DNA from: Hericium rajendrae
Lineage: Eukaryota > Basidiomycota > Agaricomycetes > Russulales > Hericiaceae
Assembly: GCA_033439255.1 (NCBI GenBank)
Contig: CM065879.1
Location: 786,501-850,500 of the forward strand
Length of the DNA: 64,000 nucleotides
Direction of reading: 5' to 3'
Shown here piece after piece: positions 2,131-18,437 of this stretch. The notes under the pieces are model-generated. The model was not told the DNA's origin. It was given only the letters and a program-made list of their open reading frames with translations, and did not search any database. The first letter of the stretch is position 1. Each line of letters begins with the position of its first letter. Position numbers and translations under genes: made by a program.

Positions 2131-2539
2131 TTCCATACTCAAAATAGAGCCGCGTCGTACTAGGAGTGGCGCACGGTCGAATCCAGATCGTACCCTTGAA
2201 CAAGAAGTCCGTGTTGCGACTCAGGACCCTCAGCAAGTTTCCCCCGACCTACCGTCACCTTTCCCACCGGTTCCAACTCCCACTAGTCCCCTTACTCCCA
2301 TCGACGAAGAGTTCGAAATTCCCGAGCTCGAGCGTTCCTTCATCGTTCCTACTCCACCCGTATCGCCAACCCCGGTGCCGCGACCCCTTGCCGGCCCCTC
2401 TGCTACCGCGGGTCCTAGGACAACGCCGCACCAGGCGACTTTGCCTGCTACCCCCCGTCCCCCTTCTCCTACTCAACAACACAGCCTGCTAGCCCCTGCA
2501 CGTTTCCCCTTCCCCAGGCCACCAAGTATCCAACCAGTC

Positions 2540-4502
2540 ATGCCGCCCCCCTCCATGCCTATGCGCGGCGAGAGCGGTGCTCCCAAGTTCGACACCAACT
2601 CCCCCCGCGAGCTGGGCCGTTACTTCCTCGATCTCGAATTTTGTTTTCAGCGTTCCTCCGTGGCAGATGACGCGGAGAAAAAGAGTCATGCGGTCCGTCT
2701 CCTCTCAGACGTTGACGCACAAGAGCTGTGGCGGTCTGAGGCCAAGTACACCGCCGGCACTTGGGACGAATTCAAGAAAGCTATCCACGAACTCTACCCG
2801 GGCTCGGCTAAGGAGAATACCTTTTCGCGTCAAGATTTGGAGTCACTCGTGCACCGAACTGCCGAGTCCACCCTCAGTTCCATCGGCGAACTTGGTGCGT
2901 TCTCGCGCGAGTTCACGGTCATCACGCGCTACCTGAAAGGCAAGAACCGCATCTCCGATATCGAGGAACAACGCTGGTTTTTGGCGGCGCTCCCCGAACA
3001 TCTTCGCCTGCGGGTAGAGGACCGCCTTGCTCTTACCAAGCCTGATCACCATCCCGACGATCCGCACCCGATCAACGACGTCTATAGGGCCGCAGAGTGG
3101 TGCATGTATGGCACTGCCATCACCCCCGACCCATACCTGCGTGGACCGTCGTCAACTCAAGCCACCGCATCGTCATCAACCGCTGATGCAGGCTCAGGAA
3201 CGACTATCCAGATTAAGAGTGAGCAGTTAGCGTCACTGGCCGATATCCTCTTGAGGAGCGCGCAGCAGCCGTCGCGTCAACCGATGGTCTCCGGAGGTAA
3301 TCAAGGCGCGCCAATGCACGGGCGAATGGGGTCGGATCAGTGCAACTTCTGTGGGAACGTGGGGCATTTCGTGCGCGAATGCATGACAGCCCGGGAATAC
3401 AGGGCCGCCGGCAAGTGCAAGAAGGACGTCCAAGGCAAGATGGTCTTACCCTCTGGGGCTTGGCTCCCGCAAGGACCCCCAGGCGCGACTATGGCCGAAC
3501 GGATCGACGAATACCACCGTATGAACCCCAATCAGCGAGCCACGGGTCAGCTTATGATGGGTGTAGCCGGTACCCGCCAGGCAAGTTCGCCGCGGGCAGG
3601 GCTCCCTCCCTACGGCTATCGCGTCGCGCCGGCATACGCTCAGACCACCGCGTCCCCCTATACCCAGGTCCAGGCAGGGTTGTACCAGCTCACCACAGAC
3701 GCGCGGATCGAGAGCCTGGAGGGCGAGCTACGGCGGTTATACCAGTTGAAGGACGCCCCGGTTGTGCCCCCACCCAATGCCGCGGCCAGCCGTGATAGAG
3801 CTAACCGGGCGTTGGAACGAGCTCGCAGGATGGAAGAGCCTGCCCGCCAACCAGCCCCTCCACGATTGCCCCGTGCACTGCTGCGCCCGACCATCGAGGA
3901 CGAACCAGAGCCGCCGCGGGCGTCCCTGCCCCCTCCGCAAGCTTCACCGGCCCCAGGCCCGGAACGAGACATCCCCCCCCACCTTCTATCTCAACCTGCA
4001 GTACGCGACGACCTCCGCGACCCTGATGGTCCCGTCCACCCATTTGCCAGAGTCCGCGACGGTGCAAGGCCCGCGCAAGTCCCAGTGATCGAAGTAGTCG
4101 AAGAGACGGGCCCAACCCGTCGTGCGCAAGACTCAGTCGGGCAAGACGTGCTGGACCGCGTGTTCGCACGCGCCATGTCCCTCCCTATCGAGGTCACCCA
4201 GGGCGAGCTCTGGTCCCTGGCGCCTGCACTATGTGCGAAATACAAGGAGGCAGTCTCACGGCGTCACACGCGTCCGGTGGCGGGACAGAACCTGTTGGAA
4301 GTCCTTAACGAGACTGACCTGCTCTCCGAGCTGCCAGGTGAAGATGCAGTCGAGGAGCTGGCCTCGCCAGCGCGTCAAATAGAGCTCGCTGCAGGTATCC
4401 AGTTCGCGAGCGAGCCCGCCGAAGGCGACCGTGTGCAGCACCCGGCCTCGCTCCCTCATCCACGGGTATTCATCCTTTCGCACCAGTGCGCCGAGCCGCC
4501 GG
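2540..4502 (+). CDS. gag: Gag polyprotein, interrupted by the nested LTR element
   Basis: Capsid and nucleocapsid precursor that packages retrotransposon RNA. From the first ATG the protein opens with a Pro-rich, Met-rich stretch. A helical capsid-like domain follows (TNSPRELGRYFLDLEF through the region near EEQRWFLAALPEHLR). A single CCHC zinc knuckle, CNFCGNVGHFVREC, lies around nt 3,340. A long Pro/Arg-rich C-terminal linker follows. The same frame is open back to about 2,024 inside the LTR without an ATG, so a non-ATG start or a longer N terminus is possible. The frame is cut at 4,502 by the 2.3-kb element and resumes at 6,832. Omitting the insert plus one CCGG gives continuous codons into the protease. 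The stop at 4,552 lies in the insert's LTR and is not native. Confidence 0.88.
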
Positions 4503-4663
4503 TGGAGTGGCCTAGGGCGACAGCTATGCCCAAGGTGATGGAATGCAGATGATGAGCTACTCTACATGAGGCGAGCCTGCTATGGACACTGCTGACTAAG
4601 CCTCGGCTATCTCCGGACTCCCCCTAACCTCTGGATCTAGGGAGCCCTCAGCTCCCTAGTCCA
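4503..4663 (-). repeat. left LTR of the nested element (its 3' LTR)
   Basis: A 161-bp terminal direct repeat beginning TGGAGTGGCC and ending CTAGTCCA on the plus strand. It appears identical to 6,667-6,827. Confidence 0.93.
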
Positions 4664-4667
4664 GGTG

Positions 4668-4675
4668 CCCCCCTC
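4668..4675 (-). other. polypurine tract of the nested element
   Basis: On the minus strand GAGGGGGG lies four bases upstream of the element's 3' LTR. This is the expected place for the plus-strand primer and it supports minus orientation. Confidence 0.7.
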
Positions 4676-4707
4676 AAACAAGGCGACGTCCGCGTCGCCC
4701 TCGAACC

Positions 4708-6072
4708 CTAAGAAACTCGAACCCAACCTAAACCTCGAAGAACCCGACACAACTCCTGAAGACGAGGATCCCCCTGCCAGTCCAAAGGCAGGACCTCGAG
4801 CTTGACCGAATGCGGAATTGGCGAAGATGATGAGACAATGATCGGACGATCTGCGCGAAGGCCTGCGGGATGGCGTCGTGTGATGACCGGCTCGGAAATC
4901 GGAATGGATGAGCAAGGCTGATGTGAGGAACGTGCAGGCCTTGCATGAGATCGCCGTGCGCGCCGCTTCAAGGAGTCGAACGGCCGTGCAGAAGGTGACC
5001 TGAGAATGGAAAAATCACGACATGTAGGGGGTACAAGCAGTGGTGTACTGGAAACGGGAAGTAAAGAAGCATCGTCGGCCCATGAAAATGAAGTTGCATT
5101 ATGGGACATTGAAATTTCATTAGTTGATGTTGAGGACTTGTGAGACGTACGAATATCGTCACAGGAATTTGAAAAGAATGTACAGGGTATGCGACCGGGT
5201 GCCAAGTCGCGTGCGTCGGTGCAGGGAAATGGATGCGGTGGGGTTTCGGACTTCGGGGAGTGCGGGCGGGCTGGGACGTCTGACTGGACACCGGCGTCGA
5301 TACGTCGGGTCGCGAGGTCAGTGCGCGGGGTCGTGGTGCATGCAGAAGTGGGCGGGGTGCGTGTGCACGAGGTGTCGTCCGTTTGGATGTGTGTGTCGAC
5401 GCGCGAGGTCGTGGGGGTCGTGCCGGTAGACGGGGAATGCGGAGGGTTCGAGACGTCCGCCTGGACGCTCGCATCGACGCTGGAGGGCGTACTCACCTCG
5501 GTACGCGCGAGTTCGAGTCCTTCACGGTAGCCCTCCCATCGGCCTTGCTCGTACCCATCTTTCCAAGCCCGTTCTCGCTGCTGCACTTCCACCCTCTCTT
5601 CCTTCCTTGCTTCTCGCCTCGCTTGCCTCCGGCCTTCCTTGCGGATTTCTTCGACTAGAGCCTCATCGATCTCGTGGATCGAATTGGCCAAGCGCGGGGG
5701 CGTGCTCGTCGACTGAACGTCGTGCGACGTTGCGTGGTGGCTCTTGCGTTGCTCGAGCTTCTGAGCGTGCTCCACGATCTGCGCGAGCAGATCATTGTCG
5801 ATCTCGTCGAGCGACTTGGCCCATCGCACGGGCACGGAACGGCCAGGGTTGTCGCAGGTCGGCGCGAGCTCGAAATCGTGGGAGGGGCTCGTTATGTAAA
5901 CGTCCGGAGGACCGATGCACGCGACAGCGGTCGCGAGATCCGCGGCTGCGTCTGCCGTGGTAGCTGGTGTGGAACATGCGGGGATGGGTGTGTGTGGTGC
6001 GGTGCGGGCATTCACGGCGGGTGCGGGCTCGTGGGGCTCGGGAAACGCGTGGGCTGCATGCGTTTGCGGCAT
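4708..6072 (-). CDS. uncharacterised 454-aa protein of the nested LTR element
   Basis: The ATG-initiated frame fills most of the element in its sense direction. I do not recognise the protein; it has no CCHC knuckle and no protease, RT or integrase motif. Residues about 1-80 are Ala/Pro/Thr-rich. At about 85-200 a charged helical stretch includes AKSLDEIDNDLLAQIVEHAQ and a related LANSIHEIDEALVEEI, then an Arg/Glu-rich coil ending in WEGYREGLELA. Residues about 200-285 hold three similar units (VDASVQADV, VDTHIQTDD, IDAGVQSDV) separated by Pro/Ser/Thr linkers. The C-terminal half is Ser/Arg-rich. It could be a highly diverged Gag-like protein or a captured host gene. Identical LTRs and an uninterrupted frame imply recent activity. 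Confidence 0.6.
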   Translation of the reverse strand: MPQTHAAHAFPEPHEPAPAVNARTAPHTPIPACSTPATTADAAADLATAVACIGPPDVYITSPSHDFELAPTCDNPGRSVPVRWAKSLDEIDNDLLAQIVEHAQKLEQRKSHHATSHDVQSTSTPPRLANSIHEIDEALVEEIRKEGRRQARREARKEERVEVQQRERAWKDGYEQGRWEGYREGLELARTEVSTPSSVDASVQADVSNPPHSPSTGTTPTTSRVDTHIQTDDTSCTRTPPTSACTTTPRTDLATRRIDAGVQSDVPARPHSPKSETPPHPFPCTDARDLAPGRIPCTFFSNSCDDIRTSHKSSTSTNEISMSHNATSFSWADDASLLPVSSTPLLVPPTCRDFSILRSPSARPFDSLKRRARRSHARPARSSHQPCSSIPISEPVITRRHPAGLRADRPIIVSSSSPIPHSVKLEVLPLDWQGDPRLQELCRVLRGLGWVRVS

Positions 6073-6640
6073 TGCTATGGTAACGGCAGTGGCCGGGTGT
6101 GCGTCGGGGGCTGCTGGCTCGAGACCGAGCGAGGTGTCGTTGGTGGGCTGTGCGGGGGATGCTGCACGAGGCGCGCGAATCGCGTCTGCCTCGTGGCTAA
6201 CGCGCGGTTGCGGTGGGCGGTTCGCGAGGAGTTCCTCAGCGTCGGATGCGGGTGTTGTGTCGACTGGGGTGATACGTGTGTCGAGCGGACGTACTGGGCT
6301 CGTGGTGGCAGCTGGTGCTGGTGCTGTTGCTGCTGTTGCTGCAGCTCAGCGCGCGGCTGAGCGTCTCTTGCCCATATCAGGTAATCGCGCAGATGTTATT
6401 GAGCGCGGGTTCGGGTGCGCGAAAACGATACGTGAGCGTCGAAATACGAGCGCGGGAGACACTTGAGGTTGGCACTAGACACGGGAGCGACTTGGGACAC
6501 GTGAGGAGACGAAAAAACGTGCGCAACACGGGGCGCGAGAACGGGACACGAGGCACGCGAGAAAGACAACGAAAACGATGCGAAAAAGCAGAAAAAAAAG
6601 CCAGAAAAGACCAGAGTGACTCAACCCAAAGCTGTGGTGG

Positions 6641-6663
6641 GTCGAATCACACTCTCATCACCA
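6641..6663 (-). other. primer-binding site of the nested element
   Basis: The plus strand reads GTCGAATCACACTCTCATCA followed by CCA. This has the layout of a tRNA 3' end: T-loop, T-stem strand, seven-base acceptor strand, discriminator A and CCA. The minus strand is therefore a tRNA-complementary primer site three bases inside the element's 5' LTR, the same gap as in the host Gypsy element. Confidence 0.82.
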
Positions 6664-6666
6664 AGA

Positions 6667-6827
6667 TGGAGTGGCCTAGGGCGACAGCTATGCCCAAGGT
6701 GATGGAATGCAGATGATGAGCTACTCTACATGAGGCGAGCCTGCTATGGACACTGCTGACTAAGCCTCGGCTATCTCCGGACTCCCCCTAACCTCTGGAT
6801 CTAGGGAGCCCTCAGCTCCCTAGTCCA
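6667..6827 (-). repeat. right LTR of the nested element (its 5' LTR)
   Basis: The second 161-bp terminal repeat, identical by eye to 4,503-4,663. It is followed by the CCGG target copy at 6,828-6,831. Confidence 0.93.
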
Positions 6828-6831
6828 CCGG

Positions 6832-7376
6832 AAGGTGCTGTCGTCCTCCCGGATCCCTACGAGCAGTACCTCAAGCAACTCCGCCCAGACGAAAAGCCTA
6901 AACCCCTGATCGTCTCGCGCGAGTCTGCGGCGCTGCGTTCTATTGCAGCACTCATAGATCATCAAGAACCGGTCGAGTGCATCTTGGACCCAGGTTCTCA
7001 GGTCATCTCCATGTCAGAGAGCGTTTGCTACACCTTAGGCCTGTCGTATGACCCCACGATTATCCTCACTATGCAATCCGCCAACGGCGAACTTGATGAC
7101 TCGCTGGGCCTGTGCCGAAACGTGCCTGCAGTCTTCGGCAACATTGTTCTCTACCTCCAAATACACGTCCTCCGGTCGCCCGCCTACGATATCCTACTCG
7201 GACGCCCCTTCGATGTGCTTACCGAGTCAGTCGTGCGCAGCTACCGCAATGAAACACAGACCATCACCATCTTCGACCCAAACACCGGCGAAGCAGCCAC
7301 GATCCCCACCCACCCGCGCACTGACATTCAGTATACGCTCGCGGCAAAGGAGGATTTTCGCGCTTCGATGATTTGA
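6832..7376 (+). CDS. Gypsy aspartic protease (3' part of gag-pro frame)
   Basis: Continuation of the Gag frame after the nested element. It encodes a retropepsin that processes the polyprotein. The active-site Asp triad appears as LDPGSQ (around nt 6,987), the flap region follows, and a second conserved block reads YDILLGRPF. The frame ends in TGA at 7,374-7,376. The pol frame overlaps it in -1 from about 7,325. No in-frame ATG is expected because translation comes from gag. Confidence 0.85.
7325..7376 (+). promoter_or_regulatory. candidate -1 ribosomal frameshift zone between pro and pol
   Basis: The gag-pro frame ends at 7,376, and the pol frame is open from its last stop at 7,322-7,324, giving about 52 bp of overlap in -1. 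In the zero frame the sequence contains G GAT TTT (7,353-7,359), close in form to known -1 slippery heptamers of the G_GAU_UUA class. I did not fold the downstream RNA. A simple one-base mutation is the alternative. Confidence 0.5.
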
Positions 7377-10193
7377 TCGAAGATCAAGGAGAGGTCGCCT
7401 TCATCGTTGATTTCGACTCGGAGACGCCACAAATCACGGCTTATGCCGCTATACCCCCAGAATGTTCCGAAAACCCAGAAAAATGCCAAGATCATCTTCA
7501 ATCTCTTTATCTCTATGCCTGTGATGCCTCGCTTCTCGACTCTAGTCCGGGGGGTCCTTCGCTTTCGGATGCCCCCGATAAATCTAATTTGTTGTCTGCC
7601 TTTCTCTCCGCTACAGCCTGCAAGTCCGCTTCCGCTTCCAAGCAAGGTCGCCCGAGTCCGCCGCCTCCTGGCGCGATGGATACCGGTCCTCCTGTCGCCT
7701 CTTACGCCGCAAAGAAATACAAGCCAGTTGCCCAAAAAGTCCGCCCAGTATTTACGGACCTCCCCGAGCGTTTTCGGGTTCTCCGTAACATCAAAGGCGA
7801 CCCTCTCCAAGACCTGCCGGAGTTATCTCCCAATCCGCCCCCGTTCGCTCCCACCGCCCGCTATACCGAAGAAAGAAAAGCGGTTATCGATCGCGCCCAT
7901 CCAGAAGGTTTCCTCTGGCCCTCCGAGCGCGACCTACTCCACCATTTCATGTGTCTCCACGATACCGCCTTCGCCTGGGACGATTCAGAGCGGGGACATT
8001 TCTGCAAAGACTTCTTCCCCTCAGTGGTTATGCCAGTGATACCGCACACCCCCTGGGTCTTGAAGAACCGTCCAATCCCGCCAGGCATCCATGACAAGGT
8101 CTGCGAGATTATCCGTACCAAGATCGCCGCCGGCGTATATGAGCCTTCGTCATCGTCATATCGCTCACGCTGGTTCTGCGTCACCAAAAAGGATGGTACA
8201 AGCCTGCGCATTGTGCACAGTCTCGAACCACTCAACAAGGTCACCATCGCTCACTCGGGCGTCCCGCCTTTTACCGACCAGCTCGCCGAGCAGTTCGCCG
8301 GGCGTGCTTGCGGCGGCATCCTCGATCTCTACGTTGGTTACGACGAGCGACTCTTGGCGGAGGAGTCCCGCGACATGACCACGTTCCAAACCCCGTTCGG
8401 GCCCAAACGGCTCGTTACACTGCCCATGGGGTGGACGAACTCCGTGCCTATCTTCCACGACGACGTTACCGAAATCCTCCGGCCAGAAATCCCAGCTGTC
8501 ACCATGCCCTATATCGATGATGTCCCCATTAAAGGCCCAGCTACCCGTTACGAGTTGCCCGGCAGAAATTTTGAAACTATACCCTGGAACCCAGGTATTC
8601 GTCGCTTTGTCTGGGAACACTTCCAGGGCGCGAACCGTGTCGTCCAACGCATGAAATATTGCAGTGGTACCTTCTCAGGGAAAAAGACTGTCCTTTGCGC
8701 ACCGGAAATCATCGTCGTCGGCCATAGATGCACGCCGGCGGGCCGTTTGCCAGAACTCAGCAACCTCGCCAAGGTCAGCAACTGGCAACCTTGTACCGAC
8801 CTCTCGGACGTTCGCGCTTTCCTCGGGACCATTGGCGTGGCCCGCATCTTCATCAAGAACTTTGCAAAACGTGCTCACCATCTGGTACGGCTTACGTGCA
8901 AGGACACCCCATTCGAGTTCGGCCCAGACCAGTTGGCTGCGCAGAAAGACCTTAAGCAAGCGCTACTCGCCTCACCCGCCCTGCGCGCGATAGATTACGA
9001 GTCTCCCGCCTCAGTGATCCTGGGCGTCGACACCTCCTATATTGCCATCGGTTACCTACTCTGTCAACAGGATGTGGACGACCCCAAAGTTCGCCGGTAT
9101 GCCCGCTTCGGCTCTATCGCCCTGAACGACCGTGAGGCGCGCTTCTCCCAACCAAAGCTGGAATTATATGGCCTATACCGGAGCCTTCGCGCACTCAAAC
9201 TCTGGCTCATTGGCGTTCGCAACCTGATTATCGAAGTCGACGCCCGTTATATATCCGGCATGCTGAATAATCCCGATCTCACCCCTAGTGCGTCCATGAA
9301 CCGGTGGATCGTCGGCATCCTCATGTTTCAATTTACCCTGGTCCACGTCCCCGGCGAGAAGCATGGGCCGGATGGCCTCTCCCGGCGCCGCCCCCAGGAC
9401 GATGATGCGCCCGAACCCGACGACGACTTCGACGACTGGGTCGACCGTGCTTATGGCTTTGTACACATAATAAATGTGCCTCAGATCGGCCACGACCGCC
9501 CTCAGCTGGCACAACAGCTCATCTCGACCAATGTCGCCGCCGGTGATTTTGTCGCGCCTCCTCCGCAAGACCACTTGGCGTCCTACGCAGACGTTCCAAG
9601 GTCCGAAAAATCCCTCCTCACGGATGCCCGACTGCGCGCCGTCACCGACTTCCTGCTCCATCCGATCCGCCCTGACGGATTGACGGACCGGGAGTATGCT
9701 CGCTTCCTGCGTTATTGCCGCGACTTCTTCATGAAAGGTGGCTGCCTCTGGAAGCGCGACAAGACAAATGCGCACAAACTAGTGCTCCCACCGACCGGCC
9801 GCTGGGCTGCTCTCGTTGAGACTCACGAGTCCGCGGGACACCGCGGCGTTGCCGCAACCGCCCTCCTGCTCGCGGTCCGTTTCTGGTGGCCTTTTATGGG
9901 CTCGGATGTCGCTTGGTTCGTCCGTTCGTGCCATATTTGCCAAGCGTTCCAGATCCGCAAAGTTCTTATCCCGCCAACGGTTGCGGTGCCCGTGCCTTTA
10001 TTTGCGAAAATGTACATGGATACCATGCACCTGCCGAAATCCAACAATATGCAATACCTGGTCCAAGGGCACTGCTCTGTGTCCCACTTTCCCGAATGGC
10101 GCATGCTGCGCAAAGAACGCAGCGAGCACATTGCTGATTGGATTTACCAAGACATCTTGTGCCGCTGGGGTATGCTCACCGAAATCGTGTCCG
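7377..10193 (+). CDS. pol: Gypsy pol: reverse transcriptase, RNase H, integrase N-part
   Basis: About 940 codons (open from 7,325) read through the reverse transcriptase (LPMGWTNSVPIFHDD, then catalytic YIDD near nt 8,508) and RNase H. RNase H acidic residues lie in VDTSYIAIGY, KLELYGLYRS, IIEVDARY and GPDGLSRR. The integrase HHCC zinc domain follows (HESAGHRG ... CHICQ, near nt 9,825-9,945), then the first catalytic Asp of the integrase core (MDTMHLPKSNN). The frame is broken after ...TEIVS at 10,193 by a TIR element. The rest of the core resumes at 13,056. Residues after 10,193 in this frame belong to the insert. Confidence 0.93.
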
Positions 10194-10244
10194 CATCTGA
10201 GAAAATGAAAATTTATATAGCATCAAGTCCTATTATGGGTCCTA

Positions 10245-10345
10245 TGGGTAAGCTATAGATGCTATGAGGCAGAACTGTCCAGCTATGGAGAGCTATGGGG
10301 GCTATGATAGGTGCCATAGCATGAGGTGTCAAGTACATAGGGTGT
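10245..10345. repeat. left subterminal repeats of the TIR transposon
   Basis: Repeated GCTATGG, GCTATGA and CATAGC words occur in both orientations within 150 bp of the left end. They match the motif set at the right end and are likely transposase-binding sites. Confidence 0.6.
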
Positions 10346-10573
10346 CATAGCCTCTATAGCCAGAGATGTCAAATATATAGGACTATCATACTTACTGAGT
10401 GAAACTATGGATGCTATGGCTACTGTATTCACTATCATCAGCCACCTAGGCACTCAAGACATTGAAGCAATATTTTCTTATATTAAAGGTACACTACCAG
10501 TACTACCACTAAACTACTTAATAAGTAATGACCCTGAGGCCACGACGGCACAGCGGACAGCTGTCACAAGCAG

Positions 10574-11700
10574 TCATGGGGACGCACGAGCACGGCCGTG
10601 CGCGGGTAGATAAGAACCTGCGCGAGTGAGCTGGAGGCATCCGGCAGGCGTGCGCTGTCTGGGCGCACAAGTGAGCGCGCGGGTAGGTGCGCTTTCGCTT
10701 GGCCAGCGCATGCTGTCGGTGGGCTGGGCGATGGCGTAGATGGGCAGCGCGGCGCGGCGGGATGCACGGGTCGTTGCGTGGCCGCGCGCGAGCTTGCCTG
10801 GCTGTGCGCGAGCTTGCCTGGGGAGGCGATCGTATGGAGGTCGTGCGTGGGGCGTGCGTGAGCTGGCGCGAGAGCTCGCATGGTCGGGGCGAGGCGGTCG
10901 TGCAGGGGGGCGTCGGCGCATGGGCCATGCGGGGGGGGGGCGGGGGGCGCAAGTCGTGCTTGGCCGTGCGCGAGCTTGTGTGGCATGCTCGGAGCGAGAT
11001 GATCGAATGGGGATACGAATGTGGGGCCGCGGGCAAGCTGGCGCGGTCGTGCGTGGCCGTGCGAGCTGGCGTGGCCGTGCGCGAGCTGACGTGGCCATGC
11101 GTGCGCTTGTGTGGACTCGCATGGGAGCGCGTTTGCATGCGCGACTGGCGTGGACGTGCTCGCGCCGTCCGAGCATGCAAGGGTGTGCCCCGCGCAGTCG
11201 GAGCCTCAGTCTTCCCGCGTGCCGTTGCGGGGGCAGGCGCACACTCGCGGGGCCGGGCTTAGACAGGCACTCACATGCGCGAGTGCAAGCGCGGGCTGGA
11301 AAGGCATCCGCGGCATGCGCGCGCAGCTCAGACCTGGCGCGGGCTTGCGGCCATGCGTGGCCGTGCGCGCGCTGGCGAGGCAATCCACGGTATGCATGGC
11401 CGTGCGCGCAGCCACGTGTCATGGCCGTGAGCACGTTGTCGACGGCGGGGACATGGCGGCGTTGCAGGCGGCTGGTGAGGTGGACCCGCACGAACCTGTT
11501 GAGGACGTGCGGGGTTTCTTGAGGGGATACGAGGGCACGGGAGGCCGAGGGAACGACGTGTCGTGCCCCGTTGCCACAGCAACGAGGTGCGACGACGTGA
11601 ACGCAGACGGTGTCGTTGGGAGGGTGGGGTCGCTGCGGGCTCGTGGATGTGGGCGCGAGGTCGAGGGGGAAGGGGGTGCAGCGCGCGGGGGTTGCAAGAA
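10574..11700. repeat. GC-rich degenerate minisatellite
   Basis: A roughly 20-bp motif of the type GTGGCCGTGCGCGAGCT recurs many times with variation, most clearly at 10,770-11,440. GC content is far higher than in the flanking arms. All six frames stay partly open because stop codons are rare in this composition, including a 395-codon minus-strand frame rich in Ala, Arg, His and Pro. I regard those as compositional and not as genes. Confidence 0.65.
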
Positions 11701-11708
11701 GGCAAACA

Positions 11709-11739
11709 CGAGTATCGCTCGTTGAACGAGCGATACTCG
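11709..11739. repeat. 31-bp perfect palindrome
   Basis: Two 15-bp arms (CGAGTATCGCTCGTT and its exact complement) are separated by a single G. It sits where the GC-rich block meets an AT-richer segment. It could form a cruciform or hairpin and may mark the boundary of a sub-element. Confidence 0.85.
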
Positions 11740-12189
11740 CGTGATTAGTATGAGAAGACAATAGAAGGGATTTTTTTACTTACCTGTTGGCCCTCGGAGC
11801 ACCTGACAAAAACCCTCCCGACTTATTGAAGATCTTGAGGGTACGGAGAGAGCGAGGGAGACGAAGACGAAGACGACGAGGGGAAGGGAGATGAAGGGAG
11901 AGTAACAAGCACAAGTCGACGCGACAAGTGCTTCAGCCACAGCACTCCATTCTCGCGCCTCGCGGATTCGACTCTAACAAACCAAATAAAATCGCATTAA
12001 CTCCCCAAAAAAAGGACAGGATACTAGAGGTCGGTACATATACAATGAATGAGCTGTTCATGTACCGACGGTGCAATATGCTCGGGGCTTTCACGATCCA
12101 CTTATTGAAATCTAACAGCCAGCCTCTGACGAGATGCTCGGCAGCGCCCGGCCCGGTCTCGGCAGCCACATTTGGCGCTCCGCTGGCCA

Positions 12190-12480
12190 CGTCTATATAA
12201 GGCGTGCGCAGTGCGCTTTCTCTCTCTCTTCCCTACCACTACCATCCCTCGTCTTTCATCGCTCTCTCTTCTCCTGCTTCAACTCTTTGATGTTCGGTAA
12301 GTCGTTATGATGTTGATATATTGTTTCATTGCTCACTAACCTTACTATTCTTTGTAGACTTTTATATTTTCGCTTTTATTATCTTAAGTAAGTCTTATGT
12401 TGTTCTATATCTTTCTTGTATACTGATTTGTTGACTTCGCCTTTAGATTATTTTCGCTTTTTCCTATCTATGAAGTAAGT
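12190..12480 (+). promoter_or_regulatory. TATA promoter followed by spliced micro-exons
   Basis: TATATAA at 12,194-12,200 is followed by a CT-rich initiator zone and, 90 bp on, by an ATG at 12,290. Three good donors (GTAAGT at 12,297, 12,388 and 12,475) and two good acceptors (TTTGTAG at 12,357, CTTTAG at 12,446) define exons of 7, 30 and 28 nt that join in one frame to a short hydrophobic peptide. The third intron has no clear end and runs into TTATC repeats. This looks like the 5' end of a fungal gene whose remainder is missing. Confidence 0.5.
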
Positions 12481-12565
12481 CTTATCTTATCTTTTTATCT
12501 ATCTTTTATATCTTTGAATCTTATCTTATCTTATCTTTGTATGTTTTGTTATCTTATCTTGGAGT
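12478..12565 (+). repeat. TTATC/TATCT simple repeat
   Basis: Short tandem and near-tandem copies of CTTATC and TTATCT within the open-ended third intron of the promoter module. Confidence 0.6.
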
Positions 12566-12779
12566 GTTGACCTTGTAGTCTATCATAGATGTATAGTGAT
12601 ATCTGTAGCTTTGTACTAAATGTGTTGTAATCTAAATATTATTTGAAATATAATGCTGTTCAGTTTTCGATGTTTTGAATGTTTTAGATGCAACAAAACT
12701 GAATTTTATAATATATTTTTATATTTGAATAAATTTTTAGCACTTTTAAGTAGCATATAAAACAGAGGTGATATAGAGT

Positions 12780-13020
12780 AGATAGTAGCCTTACTAGCTA
12801 GACATGATATGATAACAGAGATATATCACATAGCTGACATAGCTGACATAGCTATGATAGCCATTATATGTTATAGCAGCTATAATAGCTATGATAGCTT
12901 ATACTCTATGCTATGATAGCTATGATAGCTATGATAGCTCTATATAGATTACCTCACTGCTATGGAGTAGCTATGTAGAAAAGAGGACTCCTATGGCCCT
13001 ATCAGAGCTATGTAGGCTAT
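12780..13020. repeat. right subterminal repeats of the TIR transposon
   Basis: Tandem and inverted copies of AGCTATGAT and ATAGCTGACAT fill the right arm, for example three consecutive ATGATAGCT units near 12,910-12,940. The same words occur in inverted orientation in the left arm. Confidence 0.7.
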
Positions 13021-13055
13021 ATAGTGCCATATACCACTGGTCCTTTTCTCAGATG

Positions 13056-13920
13056 CGACAACGGCGGCCCGTTCGTTAAAGCCTTGACGCAGCTGGAAAA
13101 GAAGTACCACGTCCGGCATATCCGCATCTCGGGCTATAACTCGAGAGCCAACGGCATCGCTGAGCGTGCACACTTTGACGTACGCCAAGCCCTGATCAAG
13201 GCCGCCGACGGCGTGGAGAAGAATTGGAGCTACTCAGCCCACTCCGTGTTCTGGTCGGAACGTATCACCATCCGCCAGCGCATGGGCTGTTCCCCATACT
13301 TCGCGGTAACTGGTATGCACCCCCTGATGCCGCTCGATATCGCTGAAGCCACCTACCTGCTACCGCCGCCCGAGGCGATCTTGTCCTCTACCGACCTGAT
13401 CGCCTCCCGCGCTCTTGCCCTGCAGAAGCGTCAAAAGGACCTTCAGCGACTTCACAGCCGCGTCTACGAGGCCCGCCTCCAGGCAGCACGAAAATTCGAA
13501 CTGGAACATGAACGCACGATCCGCGACTTTGACTTTCGCCGCGGCGAACTGGTACTTGTCCGCAATTCTGCGTACAGCACCAGCCATTCCCGGAAGACCA
13601 AACCGCGCTACCTAGGCCCGTACCTCGTCCTCGGCCACAACAAGGGGCGTGCTTACCTCTTGTGTGAGCTCGACGGTACGTTATTCGACCGGCCCACCGC
13701 AGCCTACCGCGTTGTCCCGTATTTCGCCCATACCATCCTCGATCACCCGCCATTGGAAGATTTCCTCGATGTCGGCATCGAGCAGTTTGAATGTTTACTC
13801 GCCTCCACCGTCACAGACCCGGATGACGAAACCGCCGGCAGCGACCTCGGCGAATTCGACAGGTCCCGACCAAGTTCGCCCGCGGCGTCCTCTGACCACT
13901 CGACTAGCGAGGAGGACTGA
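13056..13920 (+). CDS. pol: Gypsy pol: integrase C-part with GPY/F-like end
   Basis: Continuation of the integrase after the TIR insertion. The second catalytic Asp is in DNGGPF at the start, and the catalytic Glu is in NGIAERAHFDVR. The C-terminal part carries a GPY/F-type motif, KPRYLGPYLVLG, typical of Ty3/Gypsy integrases. The tail is acidic and Ser-rich, and no chromodomain is visible. The stop is TGA at 13,918-13,920. The codons before 13,056 that are open in this frame belong to the insert. Confidence 0.92.
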
Positions 13921-14376
13921 GGGCAGTCCATTTTTCAGTTAGGGGGAGTAGAGGCCATCAGTCAAGCGTGTCGACGACCTTGGACGCCCCACCAATACCC
14001 ACATGCACGAAATAAATCTATTGTTACTTGCATTTCGACAAACTCGCCTTGGGCGATCTTCATACCATCCACCACTCAGATTTTACCTTCACCAATCGTA
14101 TAGGCCCTGACAAGATCGCCTGGGGCGACTTTGTTTCTTCCTGGTTTTCCCCTTTAGATTCACACAGGTTCAGACTTCAAGATGGGCTCCCATTCGGCAG
14201 GAGCAACGATACAGTAGGACTCGGCGTCCCGATTACGAGCGACCTATAGTAAAAAGCCGGGCCTAAGGCCCGGGCAACACAAAACGTATGCGACAACTTC
14301 CACGACGACAAAACAAGATAGCAAATTTAAAAGGGGAGGGTCTTTCCCTCCCCGCGCAAAGCGACAGCCCCGCTCG
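13921..14376. other. spacer after pol with internal polypurine tract
   Basis: TTTTCAGTTAGGGGGAG at 13,932-13,948 follows the pol stop by 11 bases. The identical 17-mer lies at 17,399-17,415 beside the 3' LTR. The rest of the spacer holds no plus-strand gene. The end of the antisense gene lies at 14,377. Confidence 0.7.
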
Positions 14377-16297
14377 TCAGGAGTCAGCCGGCACGACTTC
14401 CTCTGACGCGGCCACCTCAGCGACAGGAGCCGCCGTCGGCTCCAACGGCTCACCAGGACCCTCGACCGAAGGAACGGGGGACTCCCTCGCAAGCGGGCGC
14501 GAAGACGGACCCACGGTGGGACTCGCCGTGGCCTCCTCCTCTGCGTCGCTAGCAGCGTCCGCAGGCTCGTCCTTGGCGACCTTGTCCTCTTCATCCGCCT
14601 CCGCCGCGATATACTCGCCGCGCGTGCCCGTATAGAGGGCCGTGACGAGCCTCTCGACGGCGAGGATCTGGCCGTGGTTCGACATGCGTTGGAGGTACAA
14701 ACCGACGAGCTGCCGCTCAGTCTCCGCGAGCAGGGTGCGGCGAAGCGACGAATCGCGCGGAATGCACGCGTAGGGGTCGACGTAGTCCCAGGCCCCTGGA
14801 CGGAAGCCGTCGGAGACCGGGAACGGAAGGCGAGATGCGAGCGCCTCGAACGGGGCTGTAGGACGGTCACCCGGTCAGCAAACGCGTAGCAACAGTGGGG
14901 TAGCGACTTACGGAGTGCGCCCGTGGAGTCTGGTATCCCCGGTAAGACCACGGGGGAGTCGACCACCTGGTCGCGACCAGAAGAAGCCGCGGCGGCGCGC
15001 GCGGCAACGGGATCCACGATGGGCGCACCCATCCGCGTCAGATGCGCGTTGAGGTCGACGCAGGCGAGGCAGGAAGTGTGCTTCTCGCTGCACTCGCAGC
15101 ATCGCTCGTGCTTCGCGCGCCCGACGTTCTTCGCAGGGAGGACCCGGTGGAGGCACTCCTTGCCCTCGTTGATGCACGCGGTGCACCACTGCTCAGGCAG
15201 GCACTACGCAAACAGAAAATTAGCGTCGAGCACAGGTGGAGGAGATGGGTACTTACCGGACCCCACTTCTCATCGGGCTCCTTGGCCTTGGCCTTCCCTT
15301 TCCCCTCGTTCGCAGCGACGGCGCCAGCCGGCCCCGTACGCGCCCTCTTCGCCGGCGGGGGCACTTCGACAATCTCGTCCCCCGCCTCCTCCTCCTCGAC
15401 AGGTGCTACGGCCTTGCGCTTGGCCGCGCGGGTCGCAGCGGACACTGGAGCGTCCAGAGCCGGGTCTATGTCCCGCTCGGCGGACGCGTCTACGACACTG
15501 GTGGCGGTCAACAGGGCGGCGACTTCGAGGCGGTCTTGCTCACCGGTCTGCGAGCGGGGCGGCGACGGAGCCCTGGTGCGCGTGGAAGACGAGGCCTGCG
15601 GGGTCTCGTTGGTTGGCGCGGCTGCCCTTTTGCCCTTAGGGGGCCCTGTCTTGCGCGTTGAAACAGGCGCGACCTGCGCGGGCCCCTTGCCCTTGGGTGT
15701 CGCGGCCGCGAGTGGGGTGTCGTCGTCGCTCTCCTCGAGCTCGTCGGTCTCCCGGTCCTCTGTCTCGGTCGGGTCTTCGGGGGGCTCGAAGACGTCGAGC
15801 ACCTTGGCACCCCACTTGCGGTCGGACTTCAGCTCGAGGCGGCTGAAGACTACACGGGCGTCGGCAATCCCGCGACGGAAGAAATCGTTGTCGAGGTGGG
15901 TCGGTCGACCTCAAGAGAGGGCCCTGTCAGGAGTGGTGGTCAGCGGGGACGGAAGCAAAATGTGCGCCGGCGGACTCACCAAGCAACTGGCAACCTGGGT
16001 GATCCACTCTGCCCAGACATTGCCGGGGTCGCCTTCGTGCGGGTGGCCTGACCCGAAGAGGCGTTCGAGAGCCTGAATACCCTTGGGGCGGTTGTCGACG
16101 TACGCGCGAGCCATGGGAGACGAGGTGCTGAGGAGCGAGTCGCCTCGCAACTCAGTGTTCATAAGGACTCCGTGACAAGACGGAAGCGCCTGGCGAATTG
16201 CCTCCGGAGAAGCCCCCGTGTACAGGTAGCTTCGCAGCTTCGCGCAGAAGCCCGCGATGCGGGCACCCGGCCAAAACAGTTGTCGCTTCGGACTCAA
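14377..16297 (-). CDS. antisense spliced gene with Zn2Cys6-like cluster
   Basis: Coded opposite to gag-pol, between integrase and the 3' LTR. At least four exons are visible. The two downstream introns are canonical (minus-strand GTAAGT donors at 15,256 and 14,911; acceptors at 15,204 and 14,856), have CTGAC-like or similar branch regions, and join open frames exactly. An upstream GTGAGT intron starts near 15,980, but its acceptor phase is unresolved. The protein has an N-terminal part (residues like MARAYVDNRPKGIQ), then an acidic, Lys/Pro-rich region with basic clusters (AAKRKA, PAKRAR) that look like nuclear signals. A cysteine cluster follows: C-x2-C-x6-C-x17-C-x2-C-x6-C, the Zn(II)2Cys6 spacing with a long middle loop. 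A conserved-looking C-terminal block (PFEALASRLPFPVSDGF) and an acidic tail end it. Start uncertain: the frame opens at 16,297 and the first ATG is at 16,162. Probably DNA- or nucleic-acid-binding (inference). Confidence 0.65.
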
Positions 16298-16467
16298 TCA
16301 GGATCTCAGGCCCTGATTGGCGCCCATTTGTCATTTCAGCCGCGTCTTGCGAACAGGAAGCCTATTCGGCGACAGGCAAGTCCCACAGACAGCATAGTGC
16401 GCCTTGGCACCAGAATAGTTCAATTGAGTGGCGAGGCATGCTCGCCACCGGCGTACATCGTACTATA

Positions 16468-17220
16468 CTAATCCGCGGCCCCTCCCGCGACCCTGTCGCG
16501 GGCGCCCTCCTCATCTGCTCGGTAGGGCGGAAGCCGCAGCAGCTCGGCCAAGTCGAGTGCCTCCGCCACTAGGCGGTGCATCGTCTCTAGCTCATGCGGA
16601 TCCTCGCTCACCTCTCCCCCGGCGTCTTCCCACGGCAACTCCGGCGCGGAGACCGCTTGATGCAGCCTGGCGAACAACGGCTCCAGAGCCCGCTTGCAGG
16701 CCTCCGCGTCTATGACGTCATACTGGTACTTGCGGCAGGTGATATCGATTTCCTCCAGGGCCACCGCGCGGCGCGTCTCCCACAGCTCGGACTCGGCCAT
16801 GGACAGGCGGTCCGCGGCATCTATCTGATGGTGCTCCAGGGAATCGAGCCACTCGCGCTTCAGCGACGGCATGAGGTACCAACCCCAGTCGAGCCAACGG
16901 CGGACTTTCCCGGACGCGCGGGCGGCCTCGGATAGGAAGTGGTCCGACATCTGCGTGATGTCATCCTGCAGACCCACGTCGATGGCGCCAGCGTAGCGCT
17001 GGTAGTCCTTCTGGAGTCCCGAGAATTAGCAGGTACGCAACAACGCCGCAAGCGAGCTTGGACGTACTACGGCGACCATGAGGTCTCGACCCCAGATCTC
17101 GCGTTCCCGGATGACCGCGTCACGCTTGGACAGCGTGGACGCATCGAGCGGGGTCCACGAGCGCTCCGCAAGGAGCCAGGTCACTTTCTGGTGGAAGACT
17201 TGATCAAGGAAGGTGTTCAT
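16468..17220 (-). CDS. antisense spliced 231-aa protein of the Gypsy element
   Basis: Two exons, 17,220-17,068 and 17,010-16,468, joined across a 57-bp intron (GTACGT...CTGCTAAT...CTCCAG) without breaking the frame, give 231 residues from ATG to TAG. I do not recognise the family. Features are WLLAERSWTPLDASTLSKRD near the N terminus, a Trp-rich segment WLDWGWYLMPSLKREWLDSL in the middle, a helical Arg/Glu-rich region and an acidic C terminus. It lies just upstream, on the same strand, of the Zn2Cys6-like gene. The two may be one transcription unit or parts of one longer gene. Clean splice signals argue for selection on the product. Confidence 0.55.
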
Positions 17221-17398
17221 CGGGACAAGACTGCCGGGCGCGAAGATGGCTCGGAGTTGAGTGCCCTCCCGGGGCGTAGATGCCTTCTATAGGCTCGCTG
17301 CAGCACACCCGCCCAGGGCGCCGTCGCACAATCGGCTTCACGCATGCCCGTGCCCAAATCCCTCGTGGGGCTCCAGATTAGACTACGGAGAGTCTAAA

Positions 17399-17415
17399 TT
17401 TTCAGTTAGGGGGAG
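17399..17415 (+). other. polypurine tract at the 3' LTR
   Basis: TTTTCAGTTAGGGGGAG, two bases before the 3' LTR, is the plus-strand primer. It exactly duplicates the tract that follows pol at 13,932-13,948. Confidence 0.85.
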
Positions 17416-17417
17416 AA

Positions 17418-18437
17418 TGATGTGCCCTTTAGCGCGCCTTGCAACGGCATTGCCCACTCCCTGCCTCCTTGCCCGTCCCGCTTCACTTCACCTCAGCCGC
17501 ACCAAGTCCGCCCACCGCGACGTTGCTCCCCGCACAGGACAAGCGCCCCCACGGGTTCGGGACCGACCGGGTCGGACTAAAGCCGGTGTCCCGTGGTCCG
17601 ATGCACCGAACGGGCCGGAGATCAACCGGCCGGACGAGTCAGCGGCACAGGAACAGAAGCGTGCCCAGAGAACCAGCCGGCTCAATCAACGCGCCCTCGA
17701 ACGCCCACACGCCCCCGGATCACGAGCGGCGCCCGCGACAGTGCACTACTGACGTCATCCCAGCCATTCCAGCTCGACGCGCCCGCCGTTCCCGACGCAC
17801 GCCCCGGGCGACGTTGTAAGGCGGCACCTTTGATTCGTTCGTACCACGCGCACGCCCTCTGCCCTGCATGGGCCGAGCCGCAACGACTCCACTCGCCAAG
17901 GGACCCGGAGCAGGCAGGATCAGGAAGGAATTGGAGATTGGGTCGGTCAGCGGGAGGTTGTCGTAGGAAGTCGCGCCGGGCCGCCTGAGGCGGCCTTGCC
18001 CATTTGTACCATAGCTACTGACTTAGAGAATCGGAACGGAATCTGCCTTTTTCCCCTCAGAGCTCAGATCTCACAAAGCCCGCCGTTTGACGTTCTCACC
18101 CCAGCCTCTAAGCACGTCTCAGACGTAGCTCTTCTCACTTTCTCGTGTCACTCATCGTATTCGTCGTACTCGTCGCCGCGCCGTTATCTACAAGCCGTAT
18201 CACCTAAGACCCGTGAGTCTTGTCGTACCGTCATCGTCCCTAGCAGAGCCGTGTCGGAAGTCGCCCGCGCGCAGCAAGCTCGCCCTCCGCGGCCTTGCTC
18301 CCCTACCCGTAGTACGATCACCCGTCAGCTACACGTCTCGGCACTCCCCTCTTGAGATACTTGGTCCCCTCGCACCCCCCGGTACTCTGTTGGTTTTGGT
18401 TTTGGCTGCCGCCTCCATTCCCAGGGTCCACACATCA
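17418..18437 (+). repeat. 3' LTR of the Gypsy element
   Basis: A 1,020-bp copy of 1,090-2,109 that begins TGATGTGCCC and ends CACACATCA, followed by the CCGG target copy at 18,438-18,441. Its differences from the 5' LTR are confined, as far as I could see, to CpG positions. Confidence 0.95.

Follow-up and report, generated by a model that had tools for sequence, protein, structure and literature searches.

The 64,000-nt window analysed here, from contig CM065879.1 of Hericium rajendrae, includes a Ty3/Gypsy retrotransposon on the plus strand, in which protease, RNase H and integrase occur in that order between two long terminal repeats (LTRs) of 1020 bp. The 5' LTR (1090–2109) starts with TG and ends with CA, and its ungapped identity to the 3' LTR (17418–18437) is 97.3%. 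All 28 differences between the pair are of the CpG transition type, and the element therefore appears young, with a decay resembling methylation damage. A gag region with a CCHC knuckle occupies an open frame at approximately 2150–4480 (zf-CCHC, E 0.0016; at 18.9 bits the match is under the Pfam cut-off of 20.8), and pol follows in open frames at 6834–13920, with Pfam matches to gag-asp_proteas, RT_RNaseH and the zinc-binding region of integrase (Integrase_H2C2). Pfam listed no reverse-transcriptase (RT) family in pol at E ≤ 0.01, and the RT segment was placed by position.

Two insertions break up the window copy, one at 4503–6827 and the other, interrupting pol, at 10192–13057. The former has identical 161-bp direct repeats at both ends with CCGG on either side, and contains a 545-aa minus-strand frame with no Pfam match at E ≤ 0.01; it is probably an LTR element, non-autonomous and inserted in the reverse direction. 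The latter lies inside integrase and has perfect 14-nt inverted ends (CGCATCTGAGAAAA) and internal GCTATGATA-like repeats, which make it a candidate DNA transposon.

Between integrase and the 3' LTR lies a 3.45-kb module (13949–17398, minus strand) with two genes, A and B, which run opposite to gag-pol. The module is sited between two copies of a sequence which includes the polypurine tract, TTTTCAGTTAGGGGGAG, the first at 13932–13948, 11 nt past the pol stop, and the second, terminal copy at 17399–17415, 2 nt ahead of the 3' LTR. This 17-nt exact repeat is found at exactly two places within the window, and in 18 of 20 other copies of the element the 13-nt core of the repeat is likewise present as a pair, spaced by about 3.47 kb. 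The simplest reading is that the ancestral element ended with pol, tract and LTR, and that the module came in with the tract repeat through recombination or template switching. It might be speculated that the inner copy of the tract could prime internal plus-strand synthesis. No terminal inverted repeats were found at the module ends, and a comparison of the two end stretches of 400 nt, in either orientation, found no similarity. A TATA-like TATAGAA at 17285–17291 (minus strand), 71 nt upstream of the gene A ATG and identified as a pattern match only, is a candidate antisense promoter. Over the 2 kb examined of a sister element (a single copy), the sense frame closes with a stop and there is no antisense gene of the A or B kind. 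We also note that in L071 1–1035, from a sister element with about 50% RT identity, a long sense frame ends about 3.5 kb beyond the RT match, compared with about 2.2 kb in the window element when the insertion is discounted.

Gene A (17220–16468, minus strand) encodes 231 aa in the window and has a single intron. Exon 1 (17068–17220) consists of 51 codons starting with ATG, with G+C of 0.63/0.41/0.78 at the three codon positions, and is followed by a 57-nt phase 0 intron (17011–17067, GTACGT..CAG) and by exon 2 (16468–17010), an open frame of 180 codons plus stop. The intron GT and AG are retained in all 21 near copies, window included, and 18 of these are open over the full length of the gene; in the diverged copies L067 and L068 the intron is 1 nt shorter. 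Comparisons of gene A with gag and with exon 4 of gene B produced nothing convincing. We have considered that genes A and B may share one transcript or be joined through alternative splicing.

Gene B (16162–14377, minus strand) has three introns and encodes 540 aa where the frame holds. Exon 1 (15980–16162) provides 61 codons from the ATG, where the coding G+C pattern begins, and intron 1 (15924–15979, GTGAGT..CAG, phase 0) separates it from exon 2 (15257–15923), which is of low complexity and contains basic clusters such as PAKRART. Intron 2 (15204–15256, 53 nt, GTAAGT..TAG) leads to exon 3 (14912–15203) with a cysteine module, and intron 3 (14856–14911, 56 nt, GTAAGT..CAG) to exon 4 (14377–14855), with a conserved PFEALASRLPFP block, an acidic tail and the stop at 14379–14377. 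All six splice dinucleotides are intact in 31 of 31 near copies, window included. In the four diverged copies (L067–L070), the splice site of intron 3 is damaged in two (L068 and L070); intron 2 is 1 nt longer in L067 and L068, and intron 3 is 1 nt shorter in L067 and L070. An exon 4 difference common to L068, L069 and L070 is one of 21 nt. These diverged copies are decayed, with L069 and L070 having no 5' part and the L067 exons carrying one stop and a one-base loss.

This structure agrees in part with the first-pass annotation of the window, which had described one minus-strand gene between integrase and the 3' LTR, with open frames joined exactly across two introns and reaching 16297. The gene is indeed present and antisense, with a coding G+C pattern and conserved splice sites, and the two introns and the joining of frames across them were right. 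The annotation missed intron 1, which joins a further exon upstream, and also the whole of gene A. Position 16297 is the end of an open frame only, with no ATG before 16162, and we reject it as the start of gene B; the true first exon is the one which begins at the 16162 ATG. The 45 open codons upstream of this ATG lack the coding pattern, with G+C by codon position of 0.67/0.60/0.67 compared with 0.61/0.52/0.75 after the ATG (measured in one other copy), and an 8-bp indel occurs among them in some copies. An 8-bp tandem unit, GCGAAGCT, at about 16230–16250 occurs once in L060, in L065 and in L068, one of the diverged copies, and twice in most others. A further ATG frame, from 16331, overlaps the start of gene B.

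A perfect palindrome, GGTCGAATTCGACC, lies 13 nt into exon 2 of gene B and is found in this form in 15 of 31 near copies. Its length differs in 13 of the 31, window included, and a further three differ by substitution. The palindrome is hypervariable, with several distinct alleles of −1, −2 or −3 nt and the change always at the centre, and this variation looks like hairpin-driven errors of copying or repair. The window copy has lost 2 nt, leaving a 12-nt palindrome at 15910–15899 and an exon 2 of 667 nt rather than the 669 nt of the reference copy (both lengths are 3 nt greater by another count), and as a result the frame of exon 1 no longer continues into exon 2. In 12 of the 31 near copies the length of exon 2 is not divisible by three, two of the 31 are truncated, and gene B can be read through to the shared stop in 14.

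It should be noted that open frames are weak evidence for genes in DNA as rich in G+C as this, where CpG decay seldom creates a stop codon (of the 494 CpG changes possible in the gene B frames, 5 would do so). Long open frames occur in all six frames of the window DNA, and one of these, a plus-strand frame of 376 aa (14946–16076), was considered as a true gene and rejected, as frames off the third positions of gene B, of which by our reading of the coordinates it is one, show no depletion of amino-acid changes. In the reference copy, the gene B frame has no stops while the other five frames have 3–9, and both genes show the coding order of G+C by codon position, with the third position highest and the second lowest.

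We looked for selection by setting each observed change against random placements of a change of its kind at sites with the same base and CpG context, pooling the diverged copies (four for gene B and two for gene A). Amongst non-CpG changes, 73 of 123 in gene B alter an amino acid compared with 86.1 expected (p = 0.0045, relative N/S 0.63), and 19 of 36 in gene A compared with 25.0 expected (p = 0.017, relative N/S 0.49). CpG changes in the same copies are neutral (gene B 69/111 with 64.5 expected; gene A 37/55 with 34.5 expected), and shifted frames show no deficit for the non-CpG changes. The opposite-strand frame which shares its third positions with gene B has the same deficit, though it contains four stops. 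When the diverged copies are taken singly, only L067 is significant for gene B non-CpG changes (40/74 with 51.3 expected, p = 0.004), while L070 (27/43 with 31.2 expected, p = 0.10), L068 (27/43 with 30.3 expected, p = 0.17) and L069 (7/9 with 6.7 expected, p = 0.73) are not.

The near copies give a more mixed result. Non-CpG changes found in at least two of them are amino-acid-changing in 12 of 28 cases compared with 20.2 expected (p = 0.0012). For all changes found in at least two copies, a deficit seen with 21 copies (21 of 49, 30.4 expected, p = 0.0045) weakened with 31 copies to 89 of 162 (97.0 expected, p = 0.11), where only the non-CpG part is significant. Shared and single-copy changes do not differ (89N/73S and 123N/93S, p = 0.75), and the null may be biased, since single-copy non-CpG changes are in deficit too (34/59 with 40.9 expected, p = 0.03). 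One of 12 non-coding controls (six in the LTR and six in 13950–14360) reached p = 0.015. The tail of integrase, a true gene covered by 24 of the 31 copies, shows a similar but non-significant pull in its shared changes, at 0.59 for all changes (p = 0.08) and 0.50 for non-CpG changes (p = 0.16). The non-CpG deficit in the diverged copies favours selection and the flat shared-versus-single comparison speaks against it, and we regard the whole as moderate evidence for mild purifying selection on genes A and B in the active lineage.

The two genes are a regular part of this family of elements. A DNA-level search of the whole genome (46.8 Mb in 19 contigs, window included) scored 40 places, one being that of the window and the other 39 having 86–98% identity, while protein searches gave 43 matches for exon 3 of gene B, 50 for gene A and 46 for exon 4 of gene B, some of which are fragments. 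After second fragments were dropped, an antisense-gene match was found within 20 kb of 37 of the 40 family RTs (at least 85% identity), within 12 kb of 34 and within 6 kb of 27. More distant RTs with 38–56% identity have such a match within 20 kb in three of 29 cases, and the most distant (34% identity or less) in three of 57, with none within 6 kb in either group, as chance neighbours would give. For nine of the exon 3 matches and 13 of those for gene A, no RT of the family lies within 20 kb. The genes are antisense, lie between pol and the 3' LTR, and accompany most family copies, which is the arrangement of an aORF-3R. The protein searches found no host copy of gene A or B distinct from the element family, and no homologue of either gene outside the family was found in the genome or by Pfam or PDB profiles (one PDB match with E 0.92 was taken as chance and no other was convincing). 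Scans of viral contigs with exon 4 of gene B and exon 2 of gene A found no relatives, and Pfam listings to E 10 for four antisense queries gave no family, including TRP28 (PF04195), and no transposase.

The C-x2-C-x6-C-x17-C-x2-C-x6-C pattern and basic clusters reported in the first-pass annotation are present in the joined frame of gene B, and the two halves of the pattern in exon 3 (C7-C10-C17 and C35-C38-C45) have the same spacing as those of the fungal Zn2Cys6 (PF00172) regulators to which the gene had been likened. Exon 3 nevertheless differs from these in its 17-residue middle loop and in having eight conserved cysteines, at positions 1, 7, 10, 17, 35, 38, 45 and 48, kept in six of seven aligned rows. 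PF00172 matches none of the seven rows in a listing to E 10 (HMMER filters drop most matches above about 0.1), and none of the 26 places it finds in the genome at E ≤ 0.01 is a copy of gene B. These PF00172 places and the short type of intron are themselves in keeping with a fungal genome. Membership of the Zn2Cys6 family is therefore unsupported, and two four-cysteine zinc sites would fit the cysteines as well as a Zn2Cys6-like arrangement. From its sequence, exon 3 is probably a zinc-binding module of eight cysteines. Composition and precedent suggest that the most likely function of gene B is that of a nuclear regulator, and a cysteine-rich protein of this sort may be a nuclear helper that the element carries with it.

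Additional genes that run antisense to gag-pol between pol and the 3' LTR are recorded in PMC7264820 for plants and for Boty of Botrytis and Sclerotinia, where their function is described as unknown. The plant examples, which include gene23 of Grande, RIRE2, Retand (TRP28, PF04195) and PvRetro13, share the place and orientation seen here and occur in most copies (PMC7264820; PMC11963269). The Grande gene23 product is reported there to be nuclear (PMC7264820), and the TRP28 product is predicted to bind DNA, with an antisense TRP28 gene in 97% of Retand clusters (PMC11963269), whereas genes A and B match neither TRP28 nor any other Pfam family. The closest fungal parallel is Boty, or BcGypsy1, of Botrytis cinerea, with its antisense gene brtn (Zhao et al. 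2011, as cited in PMC7264820, PMC8365987 and PMC4227169). Like the element described here, Boty is a fungal Ty3/Gypsy element in these accounts, with an extra gene antisense between pol and the 3' LTR, and we liken the two by position and orientation alone; one antisense gene is named for Boty where we find two, and the Boty-like element is reported to have a chromodomain while Pfam finds none in the tail of ours at E ≤ 0.01. The word intron is absent from the main text of PMC7264820 and PMC11963269, whereas the genes here have four.

By description only, the genes also resemble HBZ of HTLV-1, which lies antisense at the 3' end of a retroelement and is a nuclear regulator. HBZ is a bZIP protein and is spliced. 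Its nuclear location is given in PMC11963269, and the HTLV antisense promoter is placed in the 3' LTR by PMC7264820. A further parallel by description is CERV of the nematode LTR element Cer1, an accessory protein which acts in the nucleus and is needed for export of the genomic RNA according to the account in PMC10309623, a nuclear role being predicted for gene B. An antisense accessory gene is already a known kind, as the plant elements and fungal Boty are in print, and our verdict is that the module is a real accessory module, known in kind and unusual in form. In the open-licence literature, mostly titles and abstracts, neither a spliced antisense gene nor a cysteine-cluster gene came to light for a basidiomycete Gypsy element, and as far as this search extends, what is new is the pair of spliced antisense genes with their four introns, together with the cysteine module.

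Several other explanations need to be weighed against functional proteins. Genes A and B might be passengers, acquired in a single event from a host or virus and kept without benefit, and the want of known relatives by Pfam or PDB profiles, the flanking 17-nt repeat (as recombination or a template switch could leave), the absence of the module from the one sister element sampled and the flat shared-versus-single test are all consistent with this. We nonetheless think it rather unlikely, given that amino-acid changes are depleted, that the genes sit beside nearly all family RTs, and that no separate host copy of either gene was found (the nine exon 3 and 13 gene A matches without a nearby RT notwithstanding). 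It is likewise improbable that the antisense RNA is what matters, pairing with the genomic RNA and either feeding RNA silencing or dampening the element, with the frames being remnants, since amino-acid changes are depleted in the frame of the genes but not in shifted ones and the near copies keep their splice sites. In favour of this view, PMC7264820 discusses possible roles of this sort for antisense non-coding transcripts of other elements, and 17 of 31 near copies fail to read gene B to the shared stop.

We give very little credence to two further possibilities. The intron-bearing antisense genes form a discrete block, some matches to which have no family RT nearby, as might be expected of a DNA transposon with its own spliced genes that had nested once in the ancestral element, but the block has neither detectable terminal inverted repeats nor a transposase or other Pfam domain. 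Similarly, the many long frames in all six readings, including the 376-aa one, and the rarity with which CpG decay makes stops would allow the genes to be no more than open frames and splice signals that arose by chance in G+C-rich DNA; that is hardly credible in view of the frame-specific depletion, the coding G+C pattern, and intron lengths which shift by +1 or −1 nt in diverged copies compared with an exon change of 21 nt.

The reading we favour, and consider reasonably probable, is that this is a Ty3/Gypsy family with a fixed antisense module of two spliced coding genes under mild selection, and that gene B provides a nuclear helper acting in trans. Under this reading, the two genes would be a fixed accessory module of the family between integrase and the 3' LTR, with A encoding 231 aa and B encoding 540 aa where the frame holds, and would probably be transcribed from a promoter in the roughly 200 bp beside the 3' LTR or from the LTR itself. 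Because both genes lie antisense to the genomic RNA, the four introns would go unrecognised there and be copied intact in each round of retrotransposition. This is the explanation for intron survival proposed in the first-pass annotation, and the retention of the introns in all near copies of both genes agrees with it, the reason itself being our inference. Gene B, with its basic clusters resembling nuclear signals, eight-cysteine module and acidic tail, would most likely work in the nucleus through LTR transcription, handling of the genomic RNA, or integration. A bolder version, which we offer tentatively and think doubtful, is that the two-gene, four-intron module produces proteins from spliced transcripts that act in the nucleus, one of them having a new eight-cysteine fold, and that these proteins control the LTR, the RNA or the integration of the element much as a retroviral antisense regulator would, the antisense strand being what keeps spliceable genes through RNA copying.

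These elements form a young family in a fungus, with dozens of copies that are almost identical, introns that are conserved and a measurable degree of constraint, and they offer a test bed for the expression and splicing of antisense genes and for whether transposition needs them. The same family would allow one to test whether antisense coding lets a retroelement keep its introns.
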